Assembly: GCA_025454405.1 (NCBI GenBank)
Contig: JALOON010000045.1
Span: 124,001 to 188,000, forward strand
Source: Oscillatoriaceae cyanobacterium Prado104
GTDB taxonomy: Bacteria > Cyanobacteriota > Cyanobacteriia > Cyanobacteriales > Microcoleaceae
DNA length: 64,000 nt
Direction: 5' to 3'
Shown: positions 19,105 to 56,300 of the stretch, piece by piece
Position numbering within the stretch: position 1 is the first letter of the stretch
Layout of the letters: each line of letters begins with the position of its first letter
Notes under the pieces: generated by a model
What the model was told of the DNA's origin: nothing
The model's database searches: none
Seen by the model: the letters and a program-made list of their open reading frames with translations, nothing else
Program-made: the position numbers and the translations under genes

Positions 19105-19509
19105 TTAAGGGTTTAGTAGTTGTTTGACTATTTGCAGGTTGTCAAAAGATTTATCAACATCTGTTTTTTTATGTCGGCGATAATAATCTCTAGCATTAGT
19201 TTTTATATTTGTTAAATATCGCGCTATTTGACTTTCATTTTTCAGATTCTTGTAAGCTTTCTCCAAATTTCGATCTTTCCGAGCGACAGCAATATCACGA
19301 ACGTAATCAAACAGGCGATCGTGTGGCGATGAGGAGCCTTGATATTTTTGTTCTAGATCGTCTCCCTGAACCTTGGCATAAGCTGCTACGCAGTGCAAAG
19401 CTGAATAGAAACACATTGTGACTGCCCAATCAGGAGAATCATCTCTGATATTAAGGGCGGCCTTTTCGTTATACTTAGCTTGTTCGCGATGGGACTGTTC
19501 GCTCGGCAT
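19105..19509 (-). CDS. HEPN-like helical protein
   Basis: A 134-residue all-helical protein. It has the layout of small HEPN proteins: DWAVTMCFYSALHCVAAYAK, a SSPHDRLFDYVRDIA loop-helix, LKNESQIARYL, and a C-terminal RDYYRRH that fits R-x5-H. HEPN proteins are often RNases in toxin-antitoxin and CRISPR-linked systems. The ATG at 19509 is preferred to an upstream TTG. It is the last gene of a tight three-gene minus-strand group. Whether RDYYRRH is the catalytic HEPN motif is uncertain, because it lies in a basic helix. Confidence 0.6.
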   Translation of the reverse strand: MPSEQSHREQAKYNEKAALNIRDDSPDWAVTMCFYSALHCVAAYAKVQGDDLEQKYQGSSSPHDRLFDYVRDIAVARKDRNLEKAYKNLKNESQIARYLTNIKTNARDYYRRHKKTDVDKSFDNLQIVKQLLNP

Positions 19510-19555
19510 AAAAATCAACAGCTACTTTCTGGTTTGTTCAGTAATTTCATTTAAT

Positions 19556-20038
19556 TCAGACCACCACAAATAAATTACGACTCGATTTCACTTGATTGTA
19601 GTAGCTTGTAGAGCGTGACAAACTTATTCCTGAAAGGGCAACTACTTTAGCTCCGTTTTGGATTCTGAAAAACTTCTCCACGATTTTTTCGTCAAAGTAC
19701 CATTTTTCATTGGTTTTATCCCGCAAATCCCATTCACAATCAATTACTAAATCTTGGATTTTTTCCCAAATTTCATCATCTAACTCTGTGTCAGAGTGCA
19801 GTTCTAATTCAAACTCAATCCAGTGAATGTCTTCAGGTCTAGAAGCTATAGCTCTAACTTTTGCTACACCGTCCACCTTCGCTAATTCCTGCACTAATTT
19901 GTGTACTTCAACAGGAGCGGAAAGAGACTTAAATGACTGACTTCGTGCCAGAGTAGAAGGGGAGTATTGATATACTTTCCAACTTTCTGGATTCGATATT
20001 GAATTGGGAAATTCTTTTAAGCTTCTGGTTGCTGTCAT
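19556..20038 (-). CDS. Unknown protein, middle gene of the HEPN module, possible C-terminal frameshift
   Basis: 160 residues, starting 3 bases after the stop of the preceding small gene. The central region is rich in acidic residues (HWIEFELELHSDTELDDEIWEK) and reads as alternating strands and helices. I do not recognise the family. The encoded end (KSSRNLFVVV) looks abnormal. In another frame the sequence continues NRVVIYLWWSELNEITEQTR to a stop at 19522, 13 bases before the HEPN start. One extra A, or two missing, in the A-run at 19586-19588 would explain this. Confidence 0.5.
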   Translation of the reverse strand: MTATRSLKEFPNSISNPESWKVYQYSPSTLARSQSFKSLSAPVEVHKLVQELAKVDGVAKVRAIASRPEDIHWIEFELELHSDTELDDEIWEKIQDLVIDCEWDLRDKTNEKWYFDEKIVEKFFRIQNGAKVVALSGISLSRSTSYYNQVKSSRNLFVVV

Positions 20039-20041
20039 TGT

Positions 20042-20263
20042 CTATTCCTGCAAAAATTCATTGAGACGGTCTCTTAAAAATTCAGCTTTTTGTCTGGTGA
20101 ATGCAAAACTGCCTACCAAATTTTTTGTCTGTGTTGACTCCGGCTCTTCAGCAGTAAAAGGACTATCTGATAGCATTCCTGCTATTAATATCCCATCGCT
20201 ATCGTCAATAGCTATTACTACACCAGTTACCAGATAAACTTTATTTTTTTCGGCATCATTCAT
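20042..20263 (-). CDS. Small unknown protein, first gene of the HEPN module
   Basis: A 73-residue protein: NKVYLVTGVVIAIDDSDGI followed by a Phe-x-Ala/Thr-rich strand and a C-terminal helix (AEFLRDRLNEFLQE). The ATG at 20263 has AAGGA at good spacing. It ends 3 bases before the next gene. No family recognised. Size and position would suit an antitoxin, but this is only a positional guess. Confidence 0.5.
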   Translation of the reverse strand: MNDAEKNKVYLVTGVVIAIDDSDGILIAGMLSDSPFTAEEPESTQTKNLVGSFAFTRQKAEFLRDRLNEFLQE

Positions 20264-20433
20264 TTGTGTCATCCTTAGGTATGGTTTTAGAAAGACTATC
20301 ACAAATTCTTGGGTTTTCTTTAAAACTAGGAACTAGATGTATTGATATGGGGAGTTCCTAGTTTCTAGGCAAACGCTAGCTTACATAATGGACTGCTTTT
20401 AGCAGCTAATTATTTAAGCTACGCCGTTTTCTA

Positions 20434-20813: not shown

Positions 20814-21488
20814 CTAGCCCGCACACTTGACCTTCTTGGGACTCCCATCTTCCTTAAGATCTAAAACCTCAACTTTCACCACTTGTTGTTCAGAGAGGGA
20901 TTGTGCTTTTTTCGGTTCTTTTTCAGTCAGCCTGATACTTCCCAGAATTTCATAAGTTACTTTGTTGCCTTTGACAGCAGTAACTTTGGCTTCGATAATT
21001 TGACCGATCGCAAAACTATAACTGCTAATTGCCTTAGCAATTTCAACTTGCCTCGCTGACTCTACAACTGGAGCTGCAATTTCTCCGATCGGCCCTGCTT
21101 CTTTGTAATAACGCATCAAGCGGGATGCCCAACCTAAAATTTGCAGCAAAGTGCTAGCATCTCCTTGAAATCCTTTGAGATATTCGCTACAAGCTCGATC
21201 GATGCTGCGGTAATAATCTGTTGTTTTGCCGCTGTGTCCGATTTGTCTGCCATTACCGACAAGGGTTTTTAGGTACTTGAAAAAACGCGAAATTGCATCA
21301 GTTCGCTCTTGATTAACTGCACTGCGGAGATAGGCGATCGCCTTTCCAAACTCATTGAGATCTGCCTCTTCTTTGACAAGAAATTGCGCGATATTGTGAG
21401 CAATTTTCCATTGTTCTTCGGTTAAAGATGCTACAAAAAGTTCAGTATCGATTGTCTGGCATTTGATTTCCTCAACTACTTCTGTCAT
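20814..21488 (-). CDS. Cas11-like helical protein with a C-terminal beta domain
   Basis: 224 residues, last gene of the type III operon. Residues about 45-130 are helical with AIAYLRSAVNQERTDAISRF, GKTTDYYRSI and ILGWASRLMRYYKEAG. The last motif parallels YLGYGSRYLKYLRDG of the clearer small-subunit gene at 26788, which suggests a second Cas11-like subunit. Residues about 150-224 are beta-rich (AIGQIIEAKVTAV, VTYEILGSIRL, VVKVEVLDLKEDG) and could be an OB/S1-like barrel. The combination is unusual; the Cas11 relation is an inference from pattern, not a search. Confidence 0.5.
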   Translation of the reverse strand: MTEVVEEIKCQTIDTELFVASLTEEQWKIAHNIAQFLVKEEADLNEFGKAIAYLRSAVNQERTDAISRFFKYLKTLVGNGRQIGHSGKTTDYYRSIDRACSEYLKGFQGDASTLLQILGWASRLMRYYKEAGPIGEIAAPVVESARQVEIAKAISSYSFAIGQIIEAKVTAVKGNKVTYEILGSIRLTEKEPKKAQSLSEQQVVKVEVLDLKEDGSPKKVKCAG

Positions 21489-21543
21489 TTTACTACTCCT
21501 AGTTTAATATACCTGTTACCTTTTAATCCTAAAACTCAAATAT

Positions 21544-22608
21544 TCAATACATTCCCGAAGGAGGTTCGCGATCGCTCGGATATTTCAACACGGCGGCTAA
21601 TTCTTCTAGTTGCGGTTTTTGAATTAAACTAGAATGGGCAGCTTTCATCATTTTCTGCATGAATTGTTGCAGTTCGTTTCCTGAAATGCGATCGCCCTCT
21701 GAAGTATAATAAGAAGCATAGCGATCGCGCAATTTTTCCCTGCTTTCAACTCGCTCGATTTCTGTCACAGTTACCGTCATCGTTCCCATACCGATTGGTT
21801 TGCCGCCGCCCACTTTAAGGGCGATCGGATATTGAGTATCTTGCCCTAAAACAACCAGCAAAGTTCCCAATTCTGCGGCTGTCAAATTCTTAAATGCAAT
21901 CTGAGTTTTAAAAGTATATTCTTTAGCTGCCTGCTGCACAGTAATCCCTCGATCTTGACCTTTATCGATCGCCCGAATTGCGTGGTAATAAAATTTGCGT
22001 CCCGCTACTTTCCCGCGCCCGTCAAAATATGCCGCTCTTTGGTCTGGCCTGGGACGGTATAAAGATGGCATAAATCCTGTGGCAAAACCAGTTGTTTCGC
22101 ACTTGGCATCGCTAAATTCAATTAATCCTTGCCAGTCCAATGCACCAAATACTTGACTTGCCGGACAAAGTTCGTCTTTCTTTTTGCACGGCAAGCGATC
22201 GGGCGGTATTTTGTCTCTATATCTTGGGGTAATTACCGCCAAAGTGCTGTTAGTAATTGCTTCGTAAACCGACCTAATACAGCCTTTTAAAGAACTTCCT
22301 TGAATCGATAGTTTTTGGTCGGTTGCTTGCACCATTGTTTTAATCAAAGGAACGCGACTGCCGATATCGCTGCCCATGACCACTACGCCTGTAGAAACGT
22401 GCAAAGAAGTTTGAACTTTTAGGGTGAGAAAAAGAGTTCCGTGGATGCGATCGCTCTTATATTTGTCATGTCCGATCGGGCGCTGCAATTTGGGTCTTTC
22501 TTTAGGAAAGGAGACAAAAGCATAAGGTTTCGGTGCAAGTTCGGATGACGCTGAACTCGAACTCGGACGGTTAGGTGGTTGAGGTCTTTGGGGGCGATTT
22601 CCAGTCAT
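21544..22608 (-). CDS. Type III RAMP (Cas7-like) without the catalytic Asp
   Basis: A 354-residue RAMP protein with a disordered Pro/Ser-rich N-terminus of about 45 residues. The ferredoxin-like core shows KVQTSLHVSTG, LSIQGSSLKGCIRSVYEAI (the conserved thumb/helix) and the glycine-rich loop VGGGKPIGMGTM. Where sister proteins have Asp-x-Pro (S-D-L-P-V-I-K), this one has S-R85-V-P-L-I-K, so it should bind but not cleave target RNA. Its ATG overlaps the Csx19 stop (ATGA). Confidence 0.8.
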   Translation of the reverse strand: MTGNRPQRPQPPNRPSSSSASSELAPKPYAFVSFPKERPKLQRPIGHDKYKSDRIHGTLFLTLKVQTSLHVSTGVVVMGSDIGSRVPLIKTMVQATDQKLSIQGSSLKGCIRSVYEAITNSTLAVITPRYRDKIPPDRLPCKKKDELCPASQVFGALDWQGLIEFSDAKCETTGFATGFMPSLYRPRPDQRAAYFDGRGKVAGRKFYYHAIRAIDKGQDRGITVQQAAKEYTFKTQIAFKNLTAAELGTLLVVLGQDTQYPIALKVGGGKPIGMGTMTVTVTEIERVESREKLRDRYASYYTSEGDRISGNELQQFMQKMMKAAHSSLIQKPQLEELAAVLKYPSDREPPSGMY

Positions 22609-23099
22609 TTTTCCGTTCCAACTGTGAGGGCAATAAAGTGTACGGTTGCAGTTTTTGCATCTTGAAAATATCGCTGACCAACAGCAATATTTTTAGGGTC
22701 GATCTTTTCGTCACTCTCATCTTTAAAAATGAAACCTTTGGGAAATCTGGTTTCGCCTGTATTGTAGAAATAGGCAGGGCGATCGATCGCCTCCCACTTT
22801 ATCGCTTCCTTATTTCCCGAAATTTCTTCAAATCCTAACTCATTTTTAGGTTCTATACTCAGCAGCAAAACTTCGTAACCCGTTCCCTTTTTTTTCCAGC
22901 GCAGATCAAATTGAGAGTTAAACATTTGCCCTTCATAACCTGGAAAATCATCGGGCAGCTTCTGAATAATACCGCTGACTTTGTGAGGCCAGCAAAGAAA
23001 GTAATAGCTGGGAGAAATTTTTAACTCTGCGCGATCGAGCAATTCTTGCAAATCTTCTTTAGATTCAACCAGTTTGTAACCTACAAACCCATCTTTCAT
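22605..23099 (-). CDS. csx19: Csx19-like type III-D protein
   Basis: A 164-residue protein matching what I remember of Csx19/TIGR03984: a Tyr-rich N-terminus, YYFLCWPHKVSG, then MFNSQFDLRWKKKGTGYEVLLLS and a late FPKGFIFKDE segment. It lies between two Cas7-like genes and overlaps both by four bases (ATGA). Csx19 is a type III-D marker. Its molecular role is not well established; presumably it is part of the effector complex. Confidence 0.65.
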   Translation of the reverse strand: MKDGFVGYKLVESKEDLQELLDRAELKISPSYYFLCWPHKVSGIIQKLPDDFPGYEGQMFNSQFDLRWKKKGTGYEVLLLSIEPKNELGFEEISGNKEAIKWEAIDRPAYFYNTGETRFPKGFIFKDESDEKIDPKNIAVGQRYFQDAKTATVHFIALTVGTEK

Positions 23100-24097
23100 G
23101 CTGCCGTTCCTCGCTGCAATAACTGACTCCAAGAAGTTACTGCTTTAGCAAACAAATCTTTTACCTGTACCTCTCCCGACCAAGTTAGCTGCACTCCAAA
23201 ACCTAGATCCATTTTTTGAGCGCCAACAGGAGTTTCTTCTCTATCTTCTGAAGGAAAACCGTAAGCTTGTGCTTCTGTTGTTTCGAGAAATTCTCCCGCA
23301 CCTAACAATGAGGTATAATTCCATTGTTTTTGACTGCCAATAGCGCGAATTTGGTTATCTTTTAATTCGCAACCCGGATACTGCACGATGGCTGAATTCA
23401 ATTTAACTTGCACCGTTCCCAAACCGCGAGATTTCGCAAAACCCAAGCCAAACCAACCATCATTTAAATCGCGCAATACTAAACCAATTAAACCTAATTG
23501 TGCGAGGGTAAAATTCTTGAGATGAATCTTGGTACGAAATTCACCAGCGGTGCAAACTTGATAGTTGAATAATGCTCCGGGTACAGTTGAGCCGAAGACG
23601 CGATCGATCGCAACTCCATTTCGTTCTTCTACCTTGGGTTTGGGTTTATCTTTGTCAGGATAAGCATCTTCTATTCTAACGCGACTGGCGATCGATGTGT
23701 TACCGAACATTTGAGACACAAAGCAGGATTGTTTGTATATTTCTCGCCCCGGATTGTGATGGTTTTTGTTAGCCTTTTTCCAATCTTCTAAATAATGGTT
23801 CGGATTATTGCGTTTGTCTTCGCTGAGAGGGTCACTTGCCCAAAGTTCAAATCCATCACCATTAGGGCGTTTATCTTTACCCATTGTACGGACAATTCGT
23901 TCTGCATGAGCGCGAATAGCACCTTTTAAACTGCTTCCGGGAAGGTAGATAGAACGTCCTCCTGCGTGGTAAGTCTCGACAAATTCCATATCCGGTTTAG
24001 TCGGATCGGCTCCTTCTTTGCCAGATTTAATTAGTATTGGGCCGTCGGGAATTATGGTGAGGTCGATCGAGCAATGATTGACAAATCGTTTGTGCAT
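23096..24097 (-). CDS. Csm3-like Cas7 RAMP
   Basis: A 333-residue RAMP. Core motifs: IDLTIIPDGPILIKSG, K-P-D36-M-E-F-V at the catalytic loop, SIYLPGSSLKGAIRAHAERI, SQMFGNTSIASRVRIEDAY, NGVAIDRVFGSTVPGALFNYQV and the glycine-rich loop GFAKSRGLGTV. D36 occupies the position of the RNA-cleaving Asp of Csm3, so it is probably an active backbone subunit. The start is about 30 bases after the PD-(D/E)XK-like gene. Confidence 0.85.
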   Translation of the reverse strand: MHKRFVNHCSIDLTIIPDGPILIKSGKEGADPTKPDMEFVETYHAGGRSIYLPGSSLKGAIRAHAERIVRTMGKDKRPNGDGFELWASDPLSEDKRNNPNHYLEDWKKANKNHHNPGREIYKQSCFVSQMFGNTSIASRVRIEDAYPDKDKPKPKVEERNGVAIDRVFGSTVPGALFNYQVCTAGEFRTKIHLKNFTLAQLGLIGLVLRDLNDGWFGLGFAKSRGLGTVQVKLNSAIVQYPGCELKDNQIRAIGSQKQWNYTSLLGAGEFLETTEAQAYGFPSEDREETPVGAQKMDLGFGVQLTWSGEVQVKDLFAKAVTSWSQLLQRGTAA

Positions 24098-24126: not shown

Positions 24127-24747
24127 TTAGGCAGCTACTAATTCATCAAGTTGAATTTCGCATTGTTGAAACACATAGTTAACAGCAGCAAACAGTCGAT
24201 CGATTTCTTGTAGAAAATAGCGGTCAATACTCCTGGTAAAAACCAGTCCTTCTAATTTACCAAATTCCCAATCTTTGCCGTTGGAAACAATCCCAAATAT
24301 TGTTACCTGCAATTCGTCATTCAATCGCTGTGCTGCCACCATCTCAGCTAAACATTGCGCCCAACCTTCTTCAAATTTATCTTGTTTCGCTTCTACTAAA
24401 AGCAAATACGGTTTGTCAAAAACAACTTTTCCCTGAGGAGAACGTTTGGCCAAAATATACTCAGGAAAACCTGACAATTTAGTATCGCAGTTAAGAGCTT
24501 CGTGACTCCACAAAAGCAATTTACTGCGATAGGTTTTCCAAATTTCTTTCAGCACTGGATAAATCAAATTTTCGCAAACAGCAAATTCTGAGTTATCAAC
24601 CACTCCTTCCCGCATCATTATTTGCAAGTCTTCGAGGAAGTAATCGGAGATTCTGAAAGCTGTTTCAATAACAAAATTAGCTTCAGTATATGTCAAATGA
24701 AATTCTTTGATAACTGCACCGATCGTCCTGTAATTGCTAAAAGCCAT
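24127..24747 (-). CDS. PD-(D/E)XK nuclease-like protein embedded in the type III operon
   Basis: 206 residues. The helical N-terminal half is followed by a nuclease-like core: LSGFPEYILAKRS, then KPYLLLVEAKQDKFEEGWAQCLAEM, which gives P-E...E-x-K in the right order, then a strand VTIFGIVSNGKDWEFGKL. Similar stand-alone proteins are common hypothetical proteins in cyanobacteria. Here it is only 7 bases from the preceding Csm3-like gene and 30 from the next, so it is co-transcribed. It could be an accessory DNase or RNase of the system or a passenger. Confidence 0.6.
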   Translation of the reverse strand: MAFSNYRTIGAVIKEFHLTYTEANFVIETAFRISDYFLEDLQIMMREGVVDNSEFAVCENLIYPVLKEIWKTYRSKLLLWSHEALNCDTKLSGFPEYILAKRSPQGKVVFDKPYLLLVEAKQDKFEEGWAQCLAEMVAAQRLNDELQVTIFGIVSNGKDWEFGKLEGLVFTRSIDRYFLQEIDRLFAAVNYVFQQCEIQLDELVAA

Positions 24748-24754
24748 ATTTGCC

Positions 24755-25615
24755 TCACTGTGTCTGAGTTAAAGTTTCAGATGATTGGGTTTCTTTCGGA
24801 GTCAGTCGATCGATCAGCTTTTGAACCCACTCATCTTTATAATCGGCTGCATCTTCATAAGCCGATTCATCTCCCATGACTAATTTTTTTAAGTATTCTA
24901 ACAAAAATTCGGGATGGTTTTCGACATCAACCCAGCGCATCTTATCAATTTCTAGTTTAACAACTCCCAAGCCGCGCGATCGCCCGCCACCCAGCGGAAT
25001 TTGTTCTGTTTCAAACTGGTGCAATCCTATTGTTAATAAACCCAATTCCCAAGGTTCTGCATTTTCGACAATCGCTTTAAATTCAAAAGGCGTTCCTGCT
25101 GGAACTACTTGAAAATCGTAGAGTTTTCCATCTGCTGCGGTTTCGGTGTCTCGATCGATCGCCACACCATCTCTTTCTTGATATTGTCCGAACCAAGCAT
25201 CAGGAATTACTGTTAAATCTCGCACTTGAAATTTGCTGGCTATCCAGGGAGAACCAAAGAGATGAGAAACTAAATCTGTATGCTTGAGAATTTCAGCAGT
25301 TAAAGCTCGATCGTCCTGAAAATTTTCTTTAATTTTCTTCATTTCTTGAGATGTAATCGACCATTCATCTTCTATGGCTGGATTGGCTACTAATTTGCGA
25401 TCGCTTCCCACAATTCCTCGGAGAAAGCTTTCTAAGCGCGATCGTAAAGCCCCTTTAAAACTAGAACCGGGAATCAACGGTCTGCCCAAAGCATCTTTAA
25501 TTACGGGTAAATCGGAGCCAATTGGTTCGGTCGATCGACCTTTACTAATGCGAAGTGCAGTTACAGTTGTCAGCGTTCCCGTAATTTCTAGTCGATTTTT
25601 GAATGTATCAAACAT
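24755..25615 (-). CDS. Csm3-like Cas7 RAMP
   Basis: A 286-residue protein, the closest of the set to canonical Csm3: LEITGTLTTVTALRIS, I-G-S-D35-L-P-V-I-K-D with the catalytic Asp, LIPGSSFKGALRSRLESFL, LFGSPWIASKFQVRDL, DGVAIDRDTETAADG, and LGGGRSRGLGVV. It should form part of the backbone and cut target RNA. A strong AGGAGGTGA directly follows the CARF gene stop and precedes the ATG. Confidence 0.9.
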   Translation of the reverse strand: MFDTFKNRLEITGTLTTVTALRISKGRSTEPIGSDLPVIKDALGRPLIPGSSFKGALRSRLESFLRGIVGSDRKLVANPAIEDEWSITSQEMKKIKENFQDDRALTAEILKHTDLVSHLFGSPWIASKFQVRDLTVIPDAWFGQYQERDGVAIDRDTETAADGKLYDFQVVPAGTPFEFKAIVENAEPWELGLLTIGLHQFETEQIPLGGGRSRGLGVVKLEIDKMRWVDVENHPEFLLEYLKKLVMGDESAYEDAADYKDEWVQKLIDRLTPKETQSSETLTQTQ

Positions 25616-25625
25616 AACTCACCTC

Positions 25626-26741
25626 CTAGTTTTTGTATTTTTTAGCTAAATGCAAAGCAATAGTATTGGTTTCAGCAAGATTCCTTCCTGTTGTTTGAAT
25701 GCACAATCCCAATCCTCGATCTGTCCAAGTTAGAACAAACTCAATAGTTCCATCGTGTTTAGTTCGGCGAATAGGATCGATCTGTTTTGAATTGAACGGT
25801 AAAGAATTGATAATTTCTTTTACATAATTCGAGCGACGGATTTTCTCAGCAAATGCTTGCAATACATCTTTACCATGATCGTCTCTCAGCCTAATTGGTT
25901 TGTTGTCAGGGGCGGTATCATCTTGAGGGATTAAGGAGAGAATAGTAGTTTCTTGCTTGGCAAATTGTAATCGGCAACGTTCGTTAAATAGGACTCCCAT
26001 TGCCGAAAGACTGACGGCAGTTTCATTGCCAATAGGTTCCTCGTCAATAAGTGACTCCATATACTTACTTTCCAGGCTTGCTTCAACTCTTGATTTTTCA
26101 ATGGTTTGTGCAGATTCCAGCTCGGAAAATAATTGATAATTATTGAGCCAAAAAGCAAGGTCAAGAGCAACTGGTTGTGGAGGTAGATCAATTACTTCTG
26201 AAAACTTCTCAAATAAGTAATAAACGGGAATTTCCAACGCTTGTCCGATCATGCCTGCAAACGAAATCTGTGCTTTATATCCGCCAGTAGCATTGATCGC
26301 AATTGCTTCCGGAGAAAAGTTTCTTACTTCTGTGCTAATCTCGCGGACAAGATTTTTAAGTCCTTGTTGCTTAAATTTCTTAACGTCGTCATCGCGCAAT
26401 CCTTGAAGCACTCGAACTTCAACAGGTCGATCGACTTTCAGAGAATTACCTGAATTTTCATAATACAACTTAAGAATATCGCCAGTTGTTCTACCATCTG
26501 CTGTATCGGAAACTAGAAAAATTAATTTTGGCTCTCGATCTTTAAACTCTTTTTGACAGATACTTGTAATTGAATTTATTTCTGCTCCGCACAACCGATG
26601 GGAGTTGGCTCTCTGGACTAATAGAAGTGCTATTTGATGCCAATTTTTGGCTTCAAAAGCTTGTTGGATATCTTCTTCTTTAGAAAATTTTAGGTTATTG
26701 AGAAGGCTCGTACCAACAGTAGAAATTAATCTCGTTCTCAT
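25626..26741 (-). CDS. CARF-domain effector with a small C-terminal domain (possibly RelE-like)
   Basis: A 371-residue protein. The N-terminal CARF (Rossmann) domain shows RLISTVGTSLLNNL, KLIFLVSDTADGRTTG, and INATGGYKAQISFAGMIGQAL followed by PVYYLFEKFSEVIDLPPQPV, as in the APE2256/Csm6-type group. CARF domains bind the cyclic oligoadenylates made by Cas10. The last about 75 residues (helix IRRSNYVKEIINSL, then TIEFVLTWTDRGLGLCIQTTG, then a helix) could be a RelE-fold RNase as in CARF-RelE (Cami1) proteins; this is tentative. No HEPN R-x4-6-H is seen at the C-terminus. The ATG at 26741 has TTTGGAG upstream and beats the upstream TTG. Confidence 0.75.
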   Translation of the reverse strand: MRTRLISTVGTSLLNNLKFSKEEDIQQAFEAKNWHQIALLLVQRANSHRLCGAEINSITSICQKEFKDREPKLIFLVSDTADGRTTGDILKLYYENSGNSLKVDRPVEVRVLQGLRDDDVKKFKQQGLKNLVREISTEVRNFSPEAIAINATGGYKAQISFAGMIGQALEIPVYYLFEKFSEVIDLPPQPVALDLAFWLNNYQLFSELESAQTIEKSRVEASLESKYMESLIDEEPIGNETAVSLSAMGVLFNERCRLQFAKQETTILSLIPQDDTAPDNKPIRLRDDHGKDVLQAFAEKIRRSNYVKEIINSLPFNSKQIDPIRRTKHDGTIEFVLTWTDRGLGLCIQTTGRNLAETNTIALHLAKKYKN

Positions 26742-26787
26742 TTTTTTCTCCAAAATTTAAGATTTGTGTTTTTTAATTTATTCTCGA

Positions 26788-27213
26788 TTAGTTTTGACCA
26801 TCTCTCAAATACTTCAGGTAACGAGAGCCATAACCTAAATAGCGGCGAATCATTTCTAGCCAAATAGGTTTGAAATCTGTTTGGGAACATTCGGCAATTA
26901 TTCCCGCACTATTTTTAATGTTACCCTCAATATCTTGAATTATCCTTTCAGCTAAAGATTGTTCTCCCCTTCCCCATTTTGTGTCCCGACCTACTTGATA
27001 TCGAATAAAGTTCTTGATAACTTCCGCACTATCAGTTGTATCAGCAACGCGAACTAAGTTGCGGAATTGTGATTCCTCTAGTTTCTCCTTTCCTGACTGA
27101 CCATATTCACAAGTATTTAGAGCGTCCTGAATCCAAATTACTAGATCGTCTTCTACTTGGCGAATGGATCTTTGTACTTCTAACTGTACTTTTTGCTCTG
27201 TGCTGATACTCAT
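26788..27213 (-). CDS. Cas11-like small subunit
   Basis: A 141-residue all-helical protein. Helices VIKNFIRYQVGRDTKWGRGE, IIQDIEGNIKNSAGIIAE and WLEMIRRYLGYGSRYLKYLRDG. Size, charge and position between the Csx10-like and CARF genes fit the type III small subunit. The true start is the ATG overlapping the Csx10-like stop (ATGA); the longer frame upstream is inside that gene. Confidence 0.65.
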   Translation of the reverse strand: MSISTEQKVQLEVQRSIRQVEDDLVIWIQDALNTCEYGQSGKEKLEESQFRNLVRVADTTDSAEVIKNFIRYQVGRDTKWGRGEQSLAERIIQDIEGNIKNSAGIIAECSQTDFKPIWLEMIRRYLGYGSRYLKYLRDGQN

Positions 27214-28493
27214 ACTGCATTCTCCCGAAATATAGTGTGAAATTCGTTGCAAATTTGAATTTGTCCGAAGCCTTCGCAGGTTCGATCGCCCACTCCTTTT
27301 AATTCTAAATCCTTTAACTTTTTCAACCACACATCTTTTTGCTCTGTGCTGAACAAATATACACTCCCTCTATTAGTGATTAATTCCACATCCTTTAGCA
27401 ATCCCCAAGCAGAATTCCAGCCAGAGAGATACTCATAGCTGCTGTAGGTCACTTCTAGTTTGAGAAACTTGTCTTGCTCTTCTTGATTCATTTTACAGTA
27501 TTCATCCTCTAAATCGACAAATTGACACAACATTTTTGGTGAAATTACCGTAGTTCGCTGCCAATTTTCAGTCAGAATAGCGGGAGACTGCAAATCAAGC
27601 GTAAAATAAGTACGATCTATAGATATTTCTGGCTTAGGACTGCCAAAAATTTTCCCGAGCTTCCAACGCTCTTTGAGATGGTCGTTAAATGTATTAATCC
27701 TGGTTGCTACATCGGATGTAGCATCTTCAATATTAGCTGCGATCGCAACTTTCCCTAATCCCCGCGAAGTAGCACCACCCAGACGAAATACCTGACAATT
27801 GCGATTGATGTAATTTGTTATAGCTCCTGCTAATCCGTCATTTTCAACCATAATTGAACTGCGGTAAACAACAGGATTCCAATTTTTAACCTTTGCATCC
27901 GGGTCTTTGAGAAATGATTCGTTGAGAACTTCAATGCTATAAAGGATTTCCTCCTGAGAGGTAGCGCGACGGCGATTAATTCCCACTCGCGTCAGAAAAC
28001 GAGTGCTAACAGAATGGTTGCGATATTTTTTGTTTGCTTGACTGTAAAAACCGCTGTAGGGTTCAACTCTTCCCCGATCTTTCGGACAACTAGGGTCATA
28101 GGGAAAGTTATATAAGTCAGCACAATAACGGTCAATCAATGTATCAAATACTCCATTTCCATCTGATTTAAATCCAGGGCTATTTTTAGAACTAACGGCT
28201 GTAGCTGGCAGTACCATAATTTCCTCAGCCACAACTCCAGTCTTTTTAGCTACTGCTGGATAAGCATTCTGAAAAATCGCTGGGTTTTCTCCTAAAAATA
28301 ACTCTTTAAAGTCGCGACCATCTTCAGCTAAATTTTCGTTTAATTGACCGGATTGCTGTAAGATTTGAGCAGCGATCGTACCTCGAATGACAGAACCGGG
28401 AATGTGGTCTTTTGCTTCGCTTATAGAACCGGGTTTTTTATCTGCGATCGCTAACGGCGACAAAGCAGTAATTTCCAATTTAATCCGCTTCAT
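27210..28493 (-). CDS. csx10: Csx10-like RAMP (type III-D Cas5-like)
   Basis: 427 residues from the ATG that overlaps the preceding RAMP stop. N-terminal KRIKLEITALSPLAIADKKPG, HIPGSVIRGTIAAQIL (helix after the first strand), a long middle region, and the glycine-rich FRLGGATSRGLGKVAI. A second half (FTLDLQSPAILTENW) looks like another ferredoxin-like unit. Csx10 binds the crRNA 5' tag in type III-D complexes. The assignment rests on the N-terminal pattern, length and neighbours. Confidence 0.75.
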   Translation of the reverse strand: MKRIKLEITALSPLAIADKKPGSISEAKDHIPGSVIRGTIAAQILQQSGQLNENLAEDGRDFKELFLGENPAIFQNAYPAVAKKTGVVAEEIMVLPATAVSSKNSPGFKSDGNGVFDTLIDRYCADLYNFPYDPSCPKDRGRVEPYSGFYSQANKKYRNHSVSTRFLTRVGINRRRATSQEEILYSIEVLNESFLKDPDAKVKNWNPVVYRSSIMVENDGLAGAITNYINRNCQVFRLGGATSRGLGKVAIAANIEDATSDVATRINTFNDHLKERWKLGKIFGSPKPEISIDRTYFTLDLQSPAILTENWQRTTVISPKMLCQFVDLEDEYCKMNQEEQDKFLKLEVTYSSYEYLSGWNSAWGLLKDVELITNRGSVYLFSTEQKDVWLKKLKDLELKGVGDRTCEGFGQIQICNEFHTIFRENAV

Positions 28494-29203
28494 GACTTTG
28501 CCTCCGGTAGTAATTCTTGCCAAGCTGAATCTGCCTGCGACAGTTTTTCTAATTCCTTCCAAGTTAACCAACCCAACCCCGCAGATTTACTACCTCCTAG
28601 CGCGTGAATGTGACGCAATCCTGCTAAAATTATCGCTTTAGCATAGGTTGGACAACCTGGCAGTAAATGAATCTCTCCCTTAAATTCTAATTGAGCATTA
28701 GCTGGGGAAGTTTCTAGGAAGAAAAGTTTTTGGTCTTCTGCGGTGCGACGGCTGCGGTTAATAGTGACACCCGGACGCAATACTTCTGGTAAATCTTCTC
28801 GTTCTAAGTTGCATATTAAGTCATCAACAACAATTCTAGATGGCAATATAGGATTGCCAAAAATTTTAGAAACAAAGCAGTGATAGCCTCTGTAACCATC
28901 CACTTGATACAAAGAACGAAACTGTTCTAAAACTTGGTCTTCTCTAGGACAGAGTGCTTCAGCAGCAGGAGATTCAAAAATTTGCCATCCCAGTCCCCTC
29001 GCTAACTTTTCGCATTCGTGGCGCAATCTTCCTTTGAGTTGGGAAGCAGGAATCAGCAGTTGTCCTTTAGCATTGCGAACGATTGGTTTATCTGCAAGGG
29101 AACCGTCAGAACCACCCGCACCGACACATAAAGCAGTGTCAATTACTGCTGTTAGCTGAAGAGGTATTACCCGATTGTCAGTTAAGGTATTCAAGTCAAT
29201 CAT
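28490..29203 (-). CDS. Csm3-like Cas7 RAMP adjacent to cas10
   Basis: A 237-residue RAMP: LQLTAVIDTALCVGAGGSDG, L-A-D38-K-P-I-V with a candidate catalytic Asp, LLIPASQLKGRLRHECEKLAR, FVSKIFGNPILPSRIVVDDL, and ALGGSKSAGLGWL. The start chosen is the ATG that overlaps the cas10 stop (ATGATTGA); a longer version would run into cas10. It is probably a backbone subunit. Confidence 0.85.
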   Translation of the reverse strand: MIDLNTLTDNRVIPLQLTAVIDTALCVGAGGSDGSLADKPIVRNAKGQLLIPASQLKGRLRHECEKLARGLGWQIFESPAAEALCPREDQVLEQFRSLYQVDGYRGYHCFVSKIFGNPILPSRIVVDDLICNLEREDLPEVLRPGVTINRSRRTAEDQKLFFLETSPANAQLEFKGEIHLLPGCPTYAKAIILAGLRHIHALGGSKSAGLGWLTWKELEKLSQADSAWQELLPEAKS

Positions 29204-31679
29204 GGCTGTACTGTTGGTTGTTTGACATTGGGGTGTTTGATTGATTTTTTTGTTCAATAAATGGGTATAAATCCACTAACTCTCTCCAGATAGTTTCATA
29301 GTGGTTTGTTTGCAGTATCTTTAAAACTGCATATTGCAACTTAAATCTTTCTTGTGGGAATGTTTCAAAGAAGATTAGTAACTTCAAATTCCTGTAGAGA
29401 GCAATTTTGTTCGTCATCCAAGGTGCTAAGTTGCCATCATTAGTTAAAGGTTGACACCACGCATTCTCAAATTGGTTTCGCAGTTCATCTTGTCCTTGTT
29501 GCAGTCGCACTCGGAAATAACGGTAGTTGAGCATGACTGTATGTTTTCCCCTTTCTAGTAGACTGCGGATTTGATAGAGTTGCGATCGCGGAAAATCTGC
29601 TTTCTTCAAAACTTTAGCCGTTTCCAACAGTCCTCCTAGTTCGTACAAGGTATAAGGTGCAGCATAAAGCTTTAATTTTTGTTTGCCGGGTCCTGACTTG
29701 GTTAATCCCTGACTGCGAAACTCGCCAACATTGGATGAAATCATTGTTACAGATTTCATTACCAAAAAGTCTACCGTTCCGCCATAATAATTCTGTTGTT
29801 TCAGCTCTTTGGCTCGCTTTTTTGCTGACTTTAGTAACTGATTAGTTAACTTTTCCGCGTAATAGATAGGCGTGTCTTCAGCCGTAATTAGCACTCCGGC
29901 AGACATACTTAATTTACATTGTATGTCGCTTGTTGGCGGTTGTGTTTCCCGATACTCTCCCAAGTAGCGATGGATAATTTGAGGACAATATTTTTTGTTA
30001 TTTTCTTGATAGCGCTTGCCCCGCTCCACAAGAAGCCTTTCAAACTCTTCGCCAATTGTTTTGGCGATCGCCAATGCTCGATCTGCTGGCACAATCAACA
30101 TCACATCATCCCCACCAATAGTTAAAATTTCAAATGGATGAATCCAGACTTCTTCTTTGCTTTTTCTCCCCGAATCGGCATCGGGTTTATATTTATGAGG
30201 TTTGAGATGTTGAGCGAGAGCAACATATACGGACTTCTCAGTTGCTTCAAAAATATCGCGGCTGAAACGCTGGTAGGTTTCGGGATTTTTAATTTCTTTC
30301 TGAATGTAACCTCCCATGTTGTTACCGTCAGCGTAAATATAAGCTACAAAACCTTTTACCAAGCTAGCATTGGCAATTTCTCTTACCGATCGCGCTTCTT
30401 CAACATCTGATGAACGTATTTCACCGTAATATTCATTGTAGGTTTTATGAGTTGCGCGCAGCAAAAATCCCTCAAACTTATTAACCCAACTTTCAACTGC
30501 TCCCGGTTCCATGTTTTCGGGAGTTGCAAAGTCCCAATCTAGTTTAGAATCTTGCCACCAAACAGGCAATTGAGGAGGCGATCGTAATTCTTTTTTAGCA
30601 ATTTGTCCGATTAATCGCTTGCGAGCTAAAGCTTCAGAAAACCACGGATCGCCAGGAAGTCCTTTGTTTTGATTGTTAGGATTGCTTTTAGCTTGGAAAA
30701 CAGCAGATCTGCGATCGCTCTCATCTCTCCTCAAATAAGGATGCGTTTCAAACATCGGCGGGTAGCTGCGGCTGGGGCGATCGCACTCTGGCAAATTATT
30801 TCCATTACGCCGCTGATTGAATAGAGATGCTAGTTTTCCCGCCAATTCATTAAATGTTTTGCGCTCCTCAAAAGCTTCTTCTGGGGATGTCTCCAGTTGT
30901 TCAAAGTAAGCTTTGATTAAGGGATTTTCTAGATTTTCTCTATATTTTTCCATCCAAAATGTATTGTCATCTATTTCAGCAGGCAATAGTCCAAACTGAA
31001 TTTCTAGCGCTTTAAATTTAGCTCCAACTGCACAGGAATTAGCAGTTAATGTCTGGTGCGTGTAGCGTTTTTCAATAGCGTTAGCCAAATCGCCTGCAAA
31101 AGCTGCCGGACTAAATGCTAAAATATTACCGCCTGTCGAGTAGATAATTAGCTCGGGAATCAGCGCTTGTGAAAGTTCGGGAAAATTTTCAGGTAAATCC
31201 AACCATTGCGATCTAACTTGCTGACAGTAATCCTTTGCTTTCTGACACTGAGGAGAATTTTGGTCATTTTCACAGCTAAAGAAAGCAGGCAGATCGACTA
31301 AGTTAATTCGATCTAATAATGCTGATGCCCCTCGGATATCTGGGAGTTTTGCTGCTTCAAATACGTATTGCTTGATTTTGGTGGCACCGCCATAAACCAA
31401 GCCGATTTCGTATTGCATTAATTGAGAATTTTGTTTTGCTATTTCTTTGAGTTCCTCTAAACTATTTGGAAATGGCAACTTTTCTAATTCCCGAACACTA
31501 TCGACCATTTCCTTAACCTGTGGCGGCACTTCTTCCCCAACATTCAACGCCCGTCGCATTTCCTGCAATACGCCCAGATCGAATTGAGGTTCGCGTTTGT
31601 CGCCCCAAGCCAGACACCAAGCAATGCCTATATATATATCAGTCAATTTTATGTTACCCGAAACAGAGGTATTTGCCAT
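29196..31679 (-). CDS. cas10: Cas10 (type III large subunit), HD-less, GGDD intact
   Basis: 827 residues. The N-terminus (NIKLTDIYIGIAWCLAWGD) leads straight into the first palm-like domain (LVYGGATKIKQYVFEAAKLP.IRGASALLDRIN); no HD nuclease motif is visible. The second palm domain has IYADGNNMGGYI and the cyclase motif LTIGGDDVMLIVP (near 30100-30130), so cyclic oligoadenylate synthesis should be possible. The C-terminal helical D4-like part follows. The ATG at 31679 fits the family; the longer frame upstream is not protein-like. It is the first gene of an eleven-gene operon and its nearest partner overlaps it. Confidence 0.88.
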   Translation of the reverse strand: MANTSVSGNIKLTDIYIGIAWCLAWGDKREPQFDLGVLQEMRRALNVGEEVPPQVKEMVDSVRELEKLPFPNSLEELKEIAKQNSQLMQYEIGLVYGGATKIKQYVFEAAKLPDIRGASALLDRINLVDLPAFFSCENDQNSPQCQKAKDYCQQVRSQWLDLPENFPELSQALIPELIIYSTGGNILAFSPAAFAGDLANAIEKRYTHQTLTANSCAVGAKFKALEIQFGLLPAEIDDNTFWMEKYRENLENPLIKAYFEQLETSPEEAFEERKTFNELAGKLASLFNQRRNGNNLPECDRPSRSYPPMFETHPYLRRDESDRRSAVFQAKSNPNNQNKGLPGDPWFSEALARKRLIGQIAKKELRSPPQLPVWWQDSKLDWDFATPENMEPGAVESWVNKFEGFLLRATHKTYNEYYGEIRSSDVEEARSVREIANASLVKGFVAYIYADGNNMGGYIQKEIKNPETYQRFSRDIFEATEKSVYVALAQHLKPHKYKPDADSGRKSKEEVWIHPFEILTIGGDDVMLIVPADRALAIAKTIGEEFERLLVERGKRYQENNKKYCPQIIHRYLGEYRETQPPTSDIQCKLSMSAGVLITAEDTPIYYAEKLTNQLLKSAKKRAKELKQQNYYGGTVDFLVMKSVTMISSNVGEFRSQGLTKSGPGKQKLKLYAAPYTLYELGGLLETAKVLKKADFPRSQLYQIRSLLERGKHTVMLNYRYFRVRLQQGQDELRNQFENAWCQPLTNDGNLAPWMTNKIALYRNLKLLIFFETFPQERFKLQYAVLKILQTNHYETIWRELVDLYPFIEQKNQSNTPMSNNQQYSHD

Positions 31680-32002
31680 CACTGTATTGTGCTTCGATCG
31701 TGCTTTAGTAATTGTCGCACAGATACGGAAATAGGGTCTTCCGAAATCGCCCGACGCTTGCCACGCCTCAATTGTGCGATTTCGACGACTCAAATTTCAG
31801 CCATCTATTTATCTATCGGATGACGCCCTGCTTTTTATGCAAAATTATCGGTTATTGTAACAAATATTTATAAAACGCGGAATTTTGGGTTTTTTAGAAG
31901 CTTATTGAAGTACGATCGCGCGTCAAATTTATCGCTCGATCGCCATACAAATTAAACTAAAATACGCTATAATATTAAATCGCTCGATCGCGCAAAACAG
32001 TC

Positions 32003-53365: not shown

Positions 53366-56300
53366 ATGGTAGCATCGTGGCAAGAACAAGGTCCCCGTCC
53401 CATCAATACTGACACCGTCAAACAACAAGTCGGAGCAATTCGCGCCGTAGTAGCCCACCCTACAAATCCAGATATTATCTGGGTGGGTGGCGTCAATGGC
53501 GGGATCTGGAAAATGGAAAACGCCACTAAAGAGAATCCTACCTGGACAACATCCACAGATGCGCTAGATTCCTTGTCCGTCACGGCCCTCGACCTCGACC
53601 TAGCCGATACTAATTACAATACCCTGGTAGCAGGAATAGGTAGATTCAGTTCTTTTGCCGGAGTCGGCGGTAAATTGATTGGCTTGGCCAAGACTACCAA
53701 TGGGGGGACTAGCTGGACGCCGATCGGCGGTACAACTTTGAGCAATACCAGCATTGCTAGCGTTGCCGTTCGAGGCAACATCATCATGGCAGCTTCGGCA
53801 GGCAGTACCACAGGACTGTTCCGCAGTACAGACGGCGGCAATACTTTTACCAATATCGCAGGCGATCCAGATTCCGGACTGCCAGAAGGTGCATTTAAAG
53901 AATTGGCGAAAGATCCGAGCAATCCCGCCATCTTTTATGTAACTGTACTCGGTCAGGGCATCTTCCGCAGCACCGACAGTGGGGCTAGTTGGCAAAACAT
54001 CACCAATAACATTACAGGAATAGGAAATACAACTAACAATTTCAGGGTAGCAGTTCACTCAAAAAACGGCATCACAGCAATCTATGTTGGTGTCGTCAAT
54101 AACTCGGCACTTGATAGCATCTGGCGATCGCAAGATAACGGTGTTAACTGGGTAAAAATGGGTCCTCTCATTACTCAAGAACAATTAGGCAGCGATCCAT
54201 CCAAGTTAACCCCCGTTGGTCTGCATCCGGGAAAACAGGGTAACACGCACTTTTCCTTAATCGCCGATCCGAACGACCCCAATATTGTCTATGTGGGCGG
54301 GGATTCGCAGACATTACCAAAGCCACAATCCAAGCTAGTAGATAATAAATGGGTAAGAATTCCTAACTCAGTTGGCGGAACCTTCTTTACTGGCAGGCTG
54401 TTTCGGGGAGACTTTTCTCAAGCAAGCAGCACACAATGGACGCCAATTACCGATAAGTTTGCTAACGGTACAGCACCTCACGCTGACTCTCGCAATATGA
54501 CATTGGATGCTGCGGGAAACTTGCTCGAAGTAGATGATGGCGGTATTTACAAGCGCACCAACCCAAAAAACGATACCGGTCGTTGGACATCTCTCAACAA
54601 CAATTTGGGAATCACCGAAATGCACTCGGTTGATTACGACGCCAATACCGGAACCATTATGGGTGGAGCCCAAGATAATGGCAGTTCTGAAGGACAGGCT
54701 TTCGGCGATCGCAAGTGGCAAGAAAGAGCGGGGGGAGATGGCGGTAGAGTCAGAATTGACGATAGCAACCCGGAATTCTCGATTCGCTATGCTAGCGCTC
54801 AAAACCTTAGCAATTTTCACTACCGGCAAATCGATACAAAGTCGAAAGTTGCTGTGGACAAGGTTTACCCTGAACTGACAGTAGGAAATACCAAGCAAAA
54901 TCTCCGACAGTACGAAGGCGTTGAATTGCCTTTCATCACTCCTGTGGAGTTGAACAAGGTTAAATCAGATTGGTTGGTCATCGGCACTGAACAAAGTGTC
55001 TACGAATCGAAAGACCAAGGTGAAACCCTAACTGATCTGAGCAACAAAAGCTTGCCCGCAGAAGTGGGAGCGATCGCCTACGGTGGCAAATCAGGCGGAG
55101 TTGACAATCCTGATGTTCTTTATATCGGTGCGGGGCAGGAACTTTTCCTCAGAACTGTCGCTGGCAATCAACCAATCAAAGTAGCAAATTATCCCCCCGA
55201 TAACAATTCTGATTCAATTATCGATATTGTTCTCGACCCAAATGATTGGAAAAAAGCCTACGTACTTACTGGAAAAGCTATTTACCGCACTATCAACGAA
55301 GGGGCAAGCTGGACTAATATTACAGGTGATTTAACAGGTAATGCCAAACTCGGTAATACTCTCAAAACGATCGAGTATGTCTCGGGTACTACAGATGGTC
55401 TTCTGGTAGGTGGTTTGGGAGGTGTTTATGCGATTCAGTCTCCTGCTACTACTGCGACATTTCAATGGACAAAGTTTGGGACGGATTTGCCCAATATCAT
55501 TGCTTACGAGTTAAATTACGATGCCAAAGCCGATCTGCTAGTGGTAGCTACTTTGGGACGGGGTGCGTGGACGCTATCAAATGTTAAACAAGAAATAGCA
55601 ACACCAACACCAACGCCAACCCCAACGCCAACCCCAACGCCAACCCCAACCCCAACACCAACACCAACGCCAACCCCAACGCCAACCCCAACGCCAACCC
55701 CAACCCCAACGCCAACGCCAACGCCAACCCCAACACCAACGCCAACACCAACGCCAACCCCAACACCAACGCCAACACCAACGCCAACACCAACGCCAAC
55801 CCCAACACCAACGCCAACACCAACACCAACGCCAACCCCAACCCCAACGCCAACACCAACATCGGGGCCTCCAAAGTTATACGTCAGTAATACCGAAATC
55901 CCCCAAAGCATTCTGGATTACGGAAATCCGGAGGATGACGATGACGATCCAGGCGATCCCTTGGGAGAAAATGAATTTCCGCCCTCACTTTGGATAGAAG
56001 TCAGCCTTGATGCCCCCAGCACAGTACCTGTAACTGTAACTGTTTCCACTCAAGACGGGACAGCACAAGCTGGTATCGATTACATTCCGATCGAAGAAAC
56101 CATCACTTTTGACCCAGGTGTAACTTTCCAGGAAGTGCGGATTGAAATTCCACTAGATACTGCGATCGAACCCGATCAGTTTTTCTTAGTAAATTTGAGC
56201 AATCCTGTCGGTGCCACGATCGCGAAAAGTCAAGGCAGAGTCATTCTCAAAGCTGACGCAGGCTCACCTTTGAGCGATAACGAGATCGATGATGGCACTC

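Follow-up and report, generated by a model that had tools for sequence, protein, structure and literature searches.

Among the described relatives of the cyanobacterial type III-D effectors, the III-Dv complex of Synechocystis is encoded in a fused form, in the order Cas10, Cas7-Cas5-Cas11, Cas7-Cas7, Csx19 and Cas7-insertion (PMC11026444). As described there, this operon is without Csx21 and has one Cas11 domain, and the Cas7-insertion subunit holds the exposed 3ʹ end of the crRNA, where target pairing starts. In the III-D complex of Saccharolobus solfataricus, chains A to E of structure 8bmw are five copies of the Cas11 subunit SSO1424 (PMC9945777). For Csx10 systems, Makarova et al. noted in 2011 an S1 (OB) domain that has "two distinct fusions", in a text that names neither the fusion partners nor a small-subunit fold nor swapping (PMC3150331). 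The rebuilt profiles of the 2025 classification include Csx19, Csx22 and Csx24-26, not Csx21, and its discussion of Cas11 stand-ins such as Csx26 makes no mention of a pair of small subunits (PMC12669027). Csx21 is a label of the PADLOC database, where the family is remarked on only as "associated" or of "unknown function" and is linked to III-D and III-A; the label comes without a fold, a role or a barrel. The name was absent from the literature searched, and a relative on an Allocoleopsis plasmid is a "hypothetical protein" in RefSeq.

The Csx21 gene considered here closes a type III-D effector operon of Oscillatoriaceae cyanobacterium Prado104, within a 64,000-nucleotide stretch of contig JALOON010000045.1 (the window; Table 1). 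Read from the minus strand, the operon runs Cas10, Cas7a, Csx10, Csm2, CARF, Cas7b, PD-(D/E)xK, Cas7c, Csx19, Cas7d and Csx21, the letters of the Cas7 proteins being our own labels by operon order; the gene order is that of the Synechocystis III-Dv effector, there in fused form. Assignment to type III-D follows from a Csx10 above its curated cut-off (TIGR02674) together with Cas10 and Csx19. Cas7d matches by sequence the III-Dv Cas7 chain 8s9t_E (E 4.8e-8), which makes Cas7-insertion its solved III-D relative, and it also matches III-E effectors. Csx21 itself is an intact, conserved and real open reading frame of 224 codons, from an ATG start to a TAG stop. By profile it belongs to the same family as the PADLOC entries PDLC01516, PDLC01485 and PDLC01042 and the 100-position entries PDLC01083 and PDLC01524, and the family profile is matched by 35 of 35 relatives.

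Table 1. Positions of the operon's genes and of the parts of Csx21 in the window.
Feature	Position	Strand	Evidence
Cas10, GGDD palm motif in translation	29196..31793	-	PDLC00919 E 9e-57; sequence
Cas7a, RAMP	28490..29257	-	kept in 35/35 full loci
Csx10 (Cas5 of III-D)	27210..28571	-	TIGR02674, 430 bits against a cut-off of 177.3
Csm2, canonical Cas11 small subunit	26788..27330	-	PDLC01011 E 1.8e-59; 8bmw_B Z 10.2
CARF protein, variable	25626..26753	-	PDLC01930 E 1.4e-135; in 22/35 loci
Cas7b, RAMP	24755..25615	-	kept in 35/35 full loci
PD-(D/E)xK protein, variable cargo	24127..24747	-	PDLC01472 E 7.8e-47; in 24/35 loci
Cas7c, RAMP	23096..24097	-	kept in 35/35 full loci
Csx19	22605..23132	-	PDLC01391 E 6.2e-48
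Cas7d, TIGR03986-like RAMP, adjoins Csx21; barrel carrier in other systems	21544..22608	-	TIGR03986 E 3.6e-41, below its cut-off
AGGAG, ribosome-binding-site-like box	21496..21500	-	read from sequence; 7 bases ahead of Csx21 ATG
Csx21, 224 aa: predicted Cas11-like helical domain, linker helix and S1/OB barrel	20814..21488	-	PADLOC PDLC01516 E 4.6e-92; AF2 mean pLDDT 86
Cas11-like five-helix domain (predicted), residues 22-131	21096..21425	-	AF2 helices; 8bmw_E Z 10.3
ILGWASRLMRYY motif, residues 117-128, last helix of Csx21 bundle	21105..21140	-	W120, R123, L124, Y127 and Y128 invariant in 35 sequences
Linker helix (predicted), residues 145-155	21024..21056	-	AF2; same sequence type precedes barrel in Cas7 of L019 and L022
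S1/OB barrel (predicted), residues 157-224	20817..21020	-	five strands (AF2); hhalign P 2.9e-5; PDB profile matches mostly S1 proteins

Other features stand out in the window and in related loci. A gene for a PD-(D/E)xK protein, single or duplicated, also adjoins III-Dv-like operons (L096-L099). At positions 19105-20302 of the window, three small open reading frames (86, 160 and 137 aa) form a cassette, the 137-aa member being HEPN-like by eye and giving no Pfam match. The three occur together in 5 of 35 III-D loci, either downstream of Csx21 or inserted between Cas7b and Cas7c, and are possibly a mobile effector or toxin-antitoxin module. At 55540-55908 of the window, densely packed direct repeats of 12 and 18 bases probably mark a repetitive coding stretch.

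The AlphaFold2 (AF2) model of Csx21, built on 35 relatives, has a mean pLDDT of 86.1 and a pTM of 0.53. The helical part and the barrel reach a pLDDT of about 89-97, and the low pTM fits two domains joined by a loose linker (residues 131-155). The five helices (residues 24-39, 44-59, 65-79, 87-103 and 111-130) are all confident. A sequence-only reading of this DNA had proposed a second Cas11-like protein beside Csm2, and this is borne out by folding and comparing both proteins: in VIA-align the top row of the helical part is 8bmw_E (rmsd 3.8 over 102 residues) at Z 10.3, a value of about 10 being within the range that the tool flags as possibly a common arrangement of helical bundles. The other rows for this part, among the 50 listed, are 6ifk_C (8.2), 6iqw_B (7.7), 9l7d_G (7.0) and 9x25_G (6.9), which come from Csm or Cmr complexes and, judged by chain length and by identical or similar entries among the matches of the control, would be Csm2 or Cmr5. 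All five rows are thus chains of type III complexes; the remaining ones of the 50 listed fall on the barrel side, the candidates having come from a Foldseek pre-ranking dominated by S1 proteins. The operon's own Csm2, folded as a positive control (pLDDT 92.4), gave 8bmw_B at Z 10.2 (rmsd 2.4, 95 residues), then 6ifk_C at Z 8.2 and more Cmr5 and Csm2 entries, so that, in comparison with Cas11, an accepted Cas11 scores no better than the helical half of Csx21. Foldseek returned no match with E <= 0.001 for either Csx21 or the Csm2 control. Its E-values are not decisive for small helical domains, since the list for the control is led by unrelated helical proteins. On these models we hold with high confidence that the helical domain has a Cas11 fold, like that of the Saccharolobus solfataricus III-D Cas11; unlike that protein, Csx21 carries a barrel.

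The same earlier reading had set ILGWASRLMRYY of Csx21 beside YLGYGSRYLKYL, which belongs to Csm2. Each motif sits in the final helix of its predicted bundle (residues 111-130 in Csx21 and 113-136 in Csm2), and in each family the L-G-[W/Y]-x-x-R spacing is either invariant or conserved to at least 90% (35 Csx21 and 28 Csm2 sequences). The parallel stands, as a weak resemblance where sequence is taken by itself. In hhalign, the best match between the two families is exactly these 16 motif columns, at a probability of 1.3%, and a score as high as this arises in 6 of 200 shuffles of the columns; this profile-profile comparison, not being significant, was set aside as proof of homology. A PADLOC Csm2 profile is matched by 3 of 35 Csx21 members (best E 0.0022), and the match of one of the relatives (L054) is collinear, residues 50-118 aligning to positions 37-113 of 116. 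A whole-protein Csx21 profile searched against solved structures found no Cas11, its top rows being designed TIM barrels and ribosomal eL6. Sequence kinship between Csx21 and Csm2 is accordingly rated marginal, and the invariant R123 may conceivably stand in for the arginines reported in the III-Dv Cas11 domain. A second, diverged type of Csm2, about 28-33% identical to that of the window, occupies the same operon position in four loci (L043, L049, L058 and L063).

Csx21 is obligatorily linked with the Csx10, Csm2, Csx19 and Cas7 genes. Csx10 scores above its curated cut-off in 29 of 386 cyanobacterial genomes, and in every one of these 29 the Csx21 helical domain is encoded on the same contig, at a distance of 1.4-6.7 kb. 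Five more genomes (G066, G186, G230, G368 and G399) have the domain without an above-cut-off Csx10, and in the stretches fetched from G066, G230, G368 and G399 the operon is decayed or incomplete. The 34 genomes counted with the helical domain come from 37, leaving out G071, where the barrel is on Cas7 only, and G182 and G403. Gene content was compared in 44 loci, namely nine of a set of 20 (six III-Dv-like and five decayed, partial or empty loci were dropped) together with L030-L064; 35 of them span Cas10 to Csx21 and are termed full loci, and the other 9 were dropped. Because the full loci were found through Csx21 or its barrel, their 35/35 for Csx21 holds by construction, and 29/29 is the unbiased count. 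In these loci Csm2, Csx19 and the four Cas7 proteins are present in 35 of 35, while CARF is missing from 13 and PD-(D/E)xK from 11. The Saccharolobus solfataricus III-D operon has one cas11 gene, whereas Csm2 and Csx21 coexist in every one of the 35 full cyanobacterial loci, so neither replaces the other. Immediately downstream of Cas7d comes Csx21; the two genes are separated by -4 to +3 nt in 26 of 35 loci, and by 55 nt in the window.

No relatives of Csx21 were detected in the phages or viral contigs searched. The 100-position III-A profile gave cross-matches to long Csx21 only, in 5 of 386 cyanobacterial genomes. Five apparent matches (L024, L025, L029, G182 and G403), being either unrelated proteins or loci that lack cas genes, were excluded from the counts.

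These counts bear on whether Csx21, instead of being a subunit, might act alongside the complex as an accessory RNA-binding protein, say in crRNA processing or signalling, its Cas11-like fold being a chance match of helical bundles. The "associated" label in PADLOC, the Z of about 10 and the weak sequence kinship to Csm2 would all suit such a protein. Its co-occurrence with Csx10 in 29 of 29 genomes is unlike that of true accessories, however, and it adjoins and is coupled to Cas7d, the same barrel is found fused to Cas7 (see below), and all helical-part rows among the 50 listed are chains of type III complexes. We regard the accessory role as highly improbable, and Csx21 as very likely a core subunit of the complex.

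The C-terminal part had been described from sequence as strand-rich with an OB/S1-like look, and the model agrees: rather than being disordered, it is a confident OB barrel of five strands (residues 164-173, 176-181, 185-190, 203-211 and 217-222; pLDDT about 92-97). Among the matches listed by Foldseek and VIA-align, its nearest folds are the S1 domains of ribosomal S1, PNPase, RNase R, Tex and NusA; examples from VIA-align are the KH-S1 construct 6qh2 (Z 8.5) and bS1 D3-D4 (7a05, Z 8.1). A profile of ten barrels matches S1 domains of the same genome in hhalign (probability 73.8, P 2.9e-5), and most of the 8 matches of the barrel profile in the PDB are S1-domain proteins (best E 0.024). The Pfam S1 model is matched by 5 of 35 members, below its cut-off (best E 0.11). 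The barrel is alike in fold, and weakly in profile, to the S1 domains of ribosomal S1, RNase R and PNPase; unlike them, it stays below the Pfam S1 cut-off and is fused to a Cas11-like or Cas7 protein. Its net charge is mildly positive (mean +2.7, range 0 to +7), and its most conserved residues are GNKVTYE, LTxKEPKK and DGS.

The same barrel forms the C-terminus of a TIGR03986-type Cas7 in seven other systems (L019, L022, L023, L026, L027, L100 and L124), the last of which is a protein of an Anabaena cylindrica plasmid where RefSeq annotates Csx19. The operons of these barrel-bearing Cas7 proteins, where they could be read, are partly fused and III-Dv-like, with a Cas10 of about 560 aa, a long Csx10, a double Cas7 and a TIGR03986 Cas7. 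The helical domain of Csx21 was not found in L095-L100, of which L100 starts near a contig end and shows only its Cas7. In the fusions of L019 and L022 the linker sequence travelled with the barrel. A tree of 52 barrels has two clades (support 100/100), each with both carriers: one joins four Cas7-borne barrels to the Csx21 barrel of G114 (L110), a protein whose helical half is that of an ordinary Csx21, and the other has three Cas7-borne barrels among Csx21 barrels. A single clade for the seven Cas7-borne barrels is rejected (p-AU 6e-8, on an alignment of only 79 columns), which indicates that the barrel was exchanged between Csx21 and Cas7 more than once. Very likely this is the S1 domain of Makarova et al., with the same two types of fusion, insofar as their brief mention allows comparison (PMC3150331). 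The sequence-only reading had remarked that a small subunit with an RNA-binding barrel would be new to it. The family was already in PADLOC, as Csx21, and the S1 domain and its two fusions had been mentioned in 2011; the Cas11 identity of Csx21 was not found in print, nor were its core status and the swapping of the barrel, in the literature searched.

The two halves of Csx21 also come apart. They are separate genes in L102 and in the decayed L101, and the barrel is missing in 3 of 29 genomes, namely G007 and G133, with K/P-rich tails, and G450, with an early stop; it is thus not indispensable. Where the tails occur (L111 of G007 and L127 of G133), a basic lysine/proline-rich stretch takes the place of the barrel. 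An apparent loss in L064 was rejected, as a remnant of the barrel sits in a separate open reading frame. On the Cas7 side, 12 of the 386 genomes have a III-Dv-like Csx10 match (open frame of 524-582 aa); in 9 of these 12 the search detected no barrel on a Cas7, so the barrel is not universal there either. It also ends an 858-aa CHAT-DUF1257 protein of a filamentous cyanobacterium (L062:7661-10237). In another locus (L038:9977-13374), a Csx21 gene that has no cas gene beside it is some 1 kb away from an open reading frame whose N-terminus resembles that CHAT protein, and a link between CHAT proteases and the barrel is possible.

OB folds often bind proteins, and Csx21 could be a core Cas11-type subunit whose barrel is a protein-protein module locking Csx21 or Cas7d onto the complex. 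The mild charge, the K/P-rich tails that replace the barrel in G007 and G133, and conserved residues that show no recognisable aromatic RNA-binding face would all agree with such a module. Its fold and profile are closest to RNA-binding S1 domains, however, and movement between carriers is compatible with a general RNA-binding module as much as with an adaptor. We consider the adaptor unlikely, and lean slightly towards a barrel that binds RNA.

Prediction and comparison give the Cas11 fold, the S1/OB fold, the linkage and the exchange of the barrel with TIGR03986-type Cas7; physical membership of the complex, a position at the Cas7d end, RNA binding and target capture are what we infer. The reading we favour is that the cyanobacterial III-D effector probably has a second, dedicated small subunit of Cas11 type, Csx21, with an S1-type barrel that would grip target RNA near the Cas7d end. 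A place next to Cas7d is itself reasonably likely. The helical domain would probably lie in the row of small subunits along the Cas7 backbone, beside Cas7d, extending or capping the row, and the barrel would hang off the side of the crRNA 3ʹ end on a short helix. Because the barrel is able to hang either on Cas7d or on its Cas11-like neighbour, it is best placed at that 3ʹ end. There it would most likely grip arriving single-stranded target RNA, and this grip would help to capture or hold the target during seed pairing. A more specific version is tentative, and we think it somewhat doubtful: two small subunits would divide the complex, Csm2 lining the body and Csx21 serving as a specialised cap at the crRNA 3ʹ end, and the S1 barrel would be a movable RNA-capture arm, passed several times between Csx21 and the terminal Cas7 and so held at the same site, that tunes the capture of transcripts before seed pairing.

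If the favoured reading is true, a common cyanobacterial immune complex would gain as a core subunit a protein labelled only "associated" or "hypothetical", and one complex would contain a second, non-redundant Cas11. That the barrel has moved between Csx21 and Cas7 would turn into a direct prediction of the barrel's site and job. Finally, the linked genes would name the partners needed to rebuild the whole cyanobacterial III-D effector, which is related to the III-Dv and III-E effectors but unfused.
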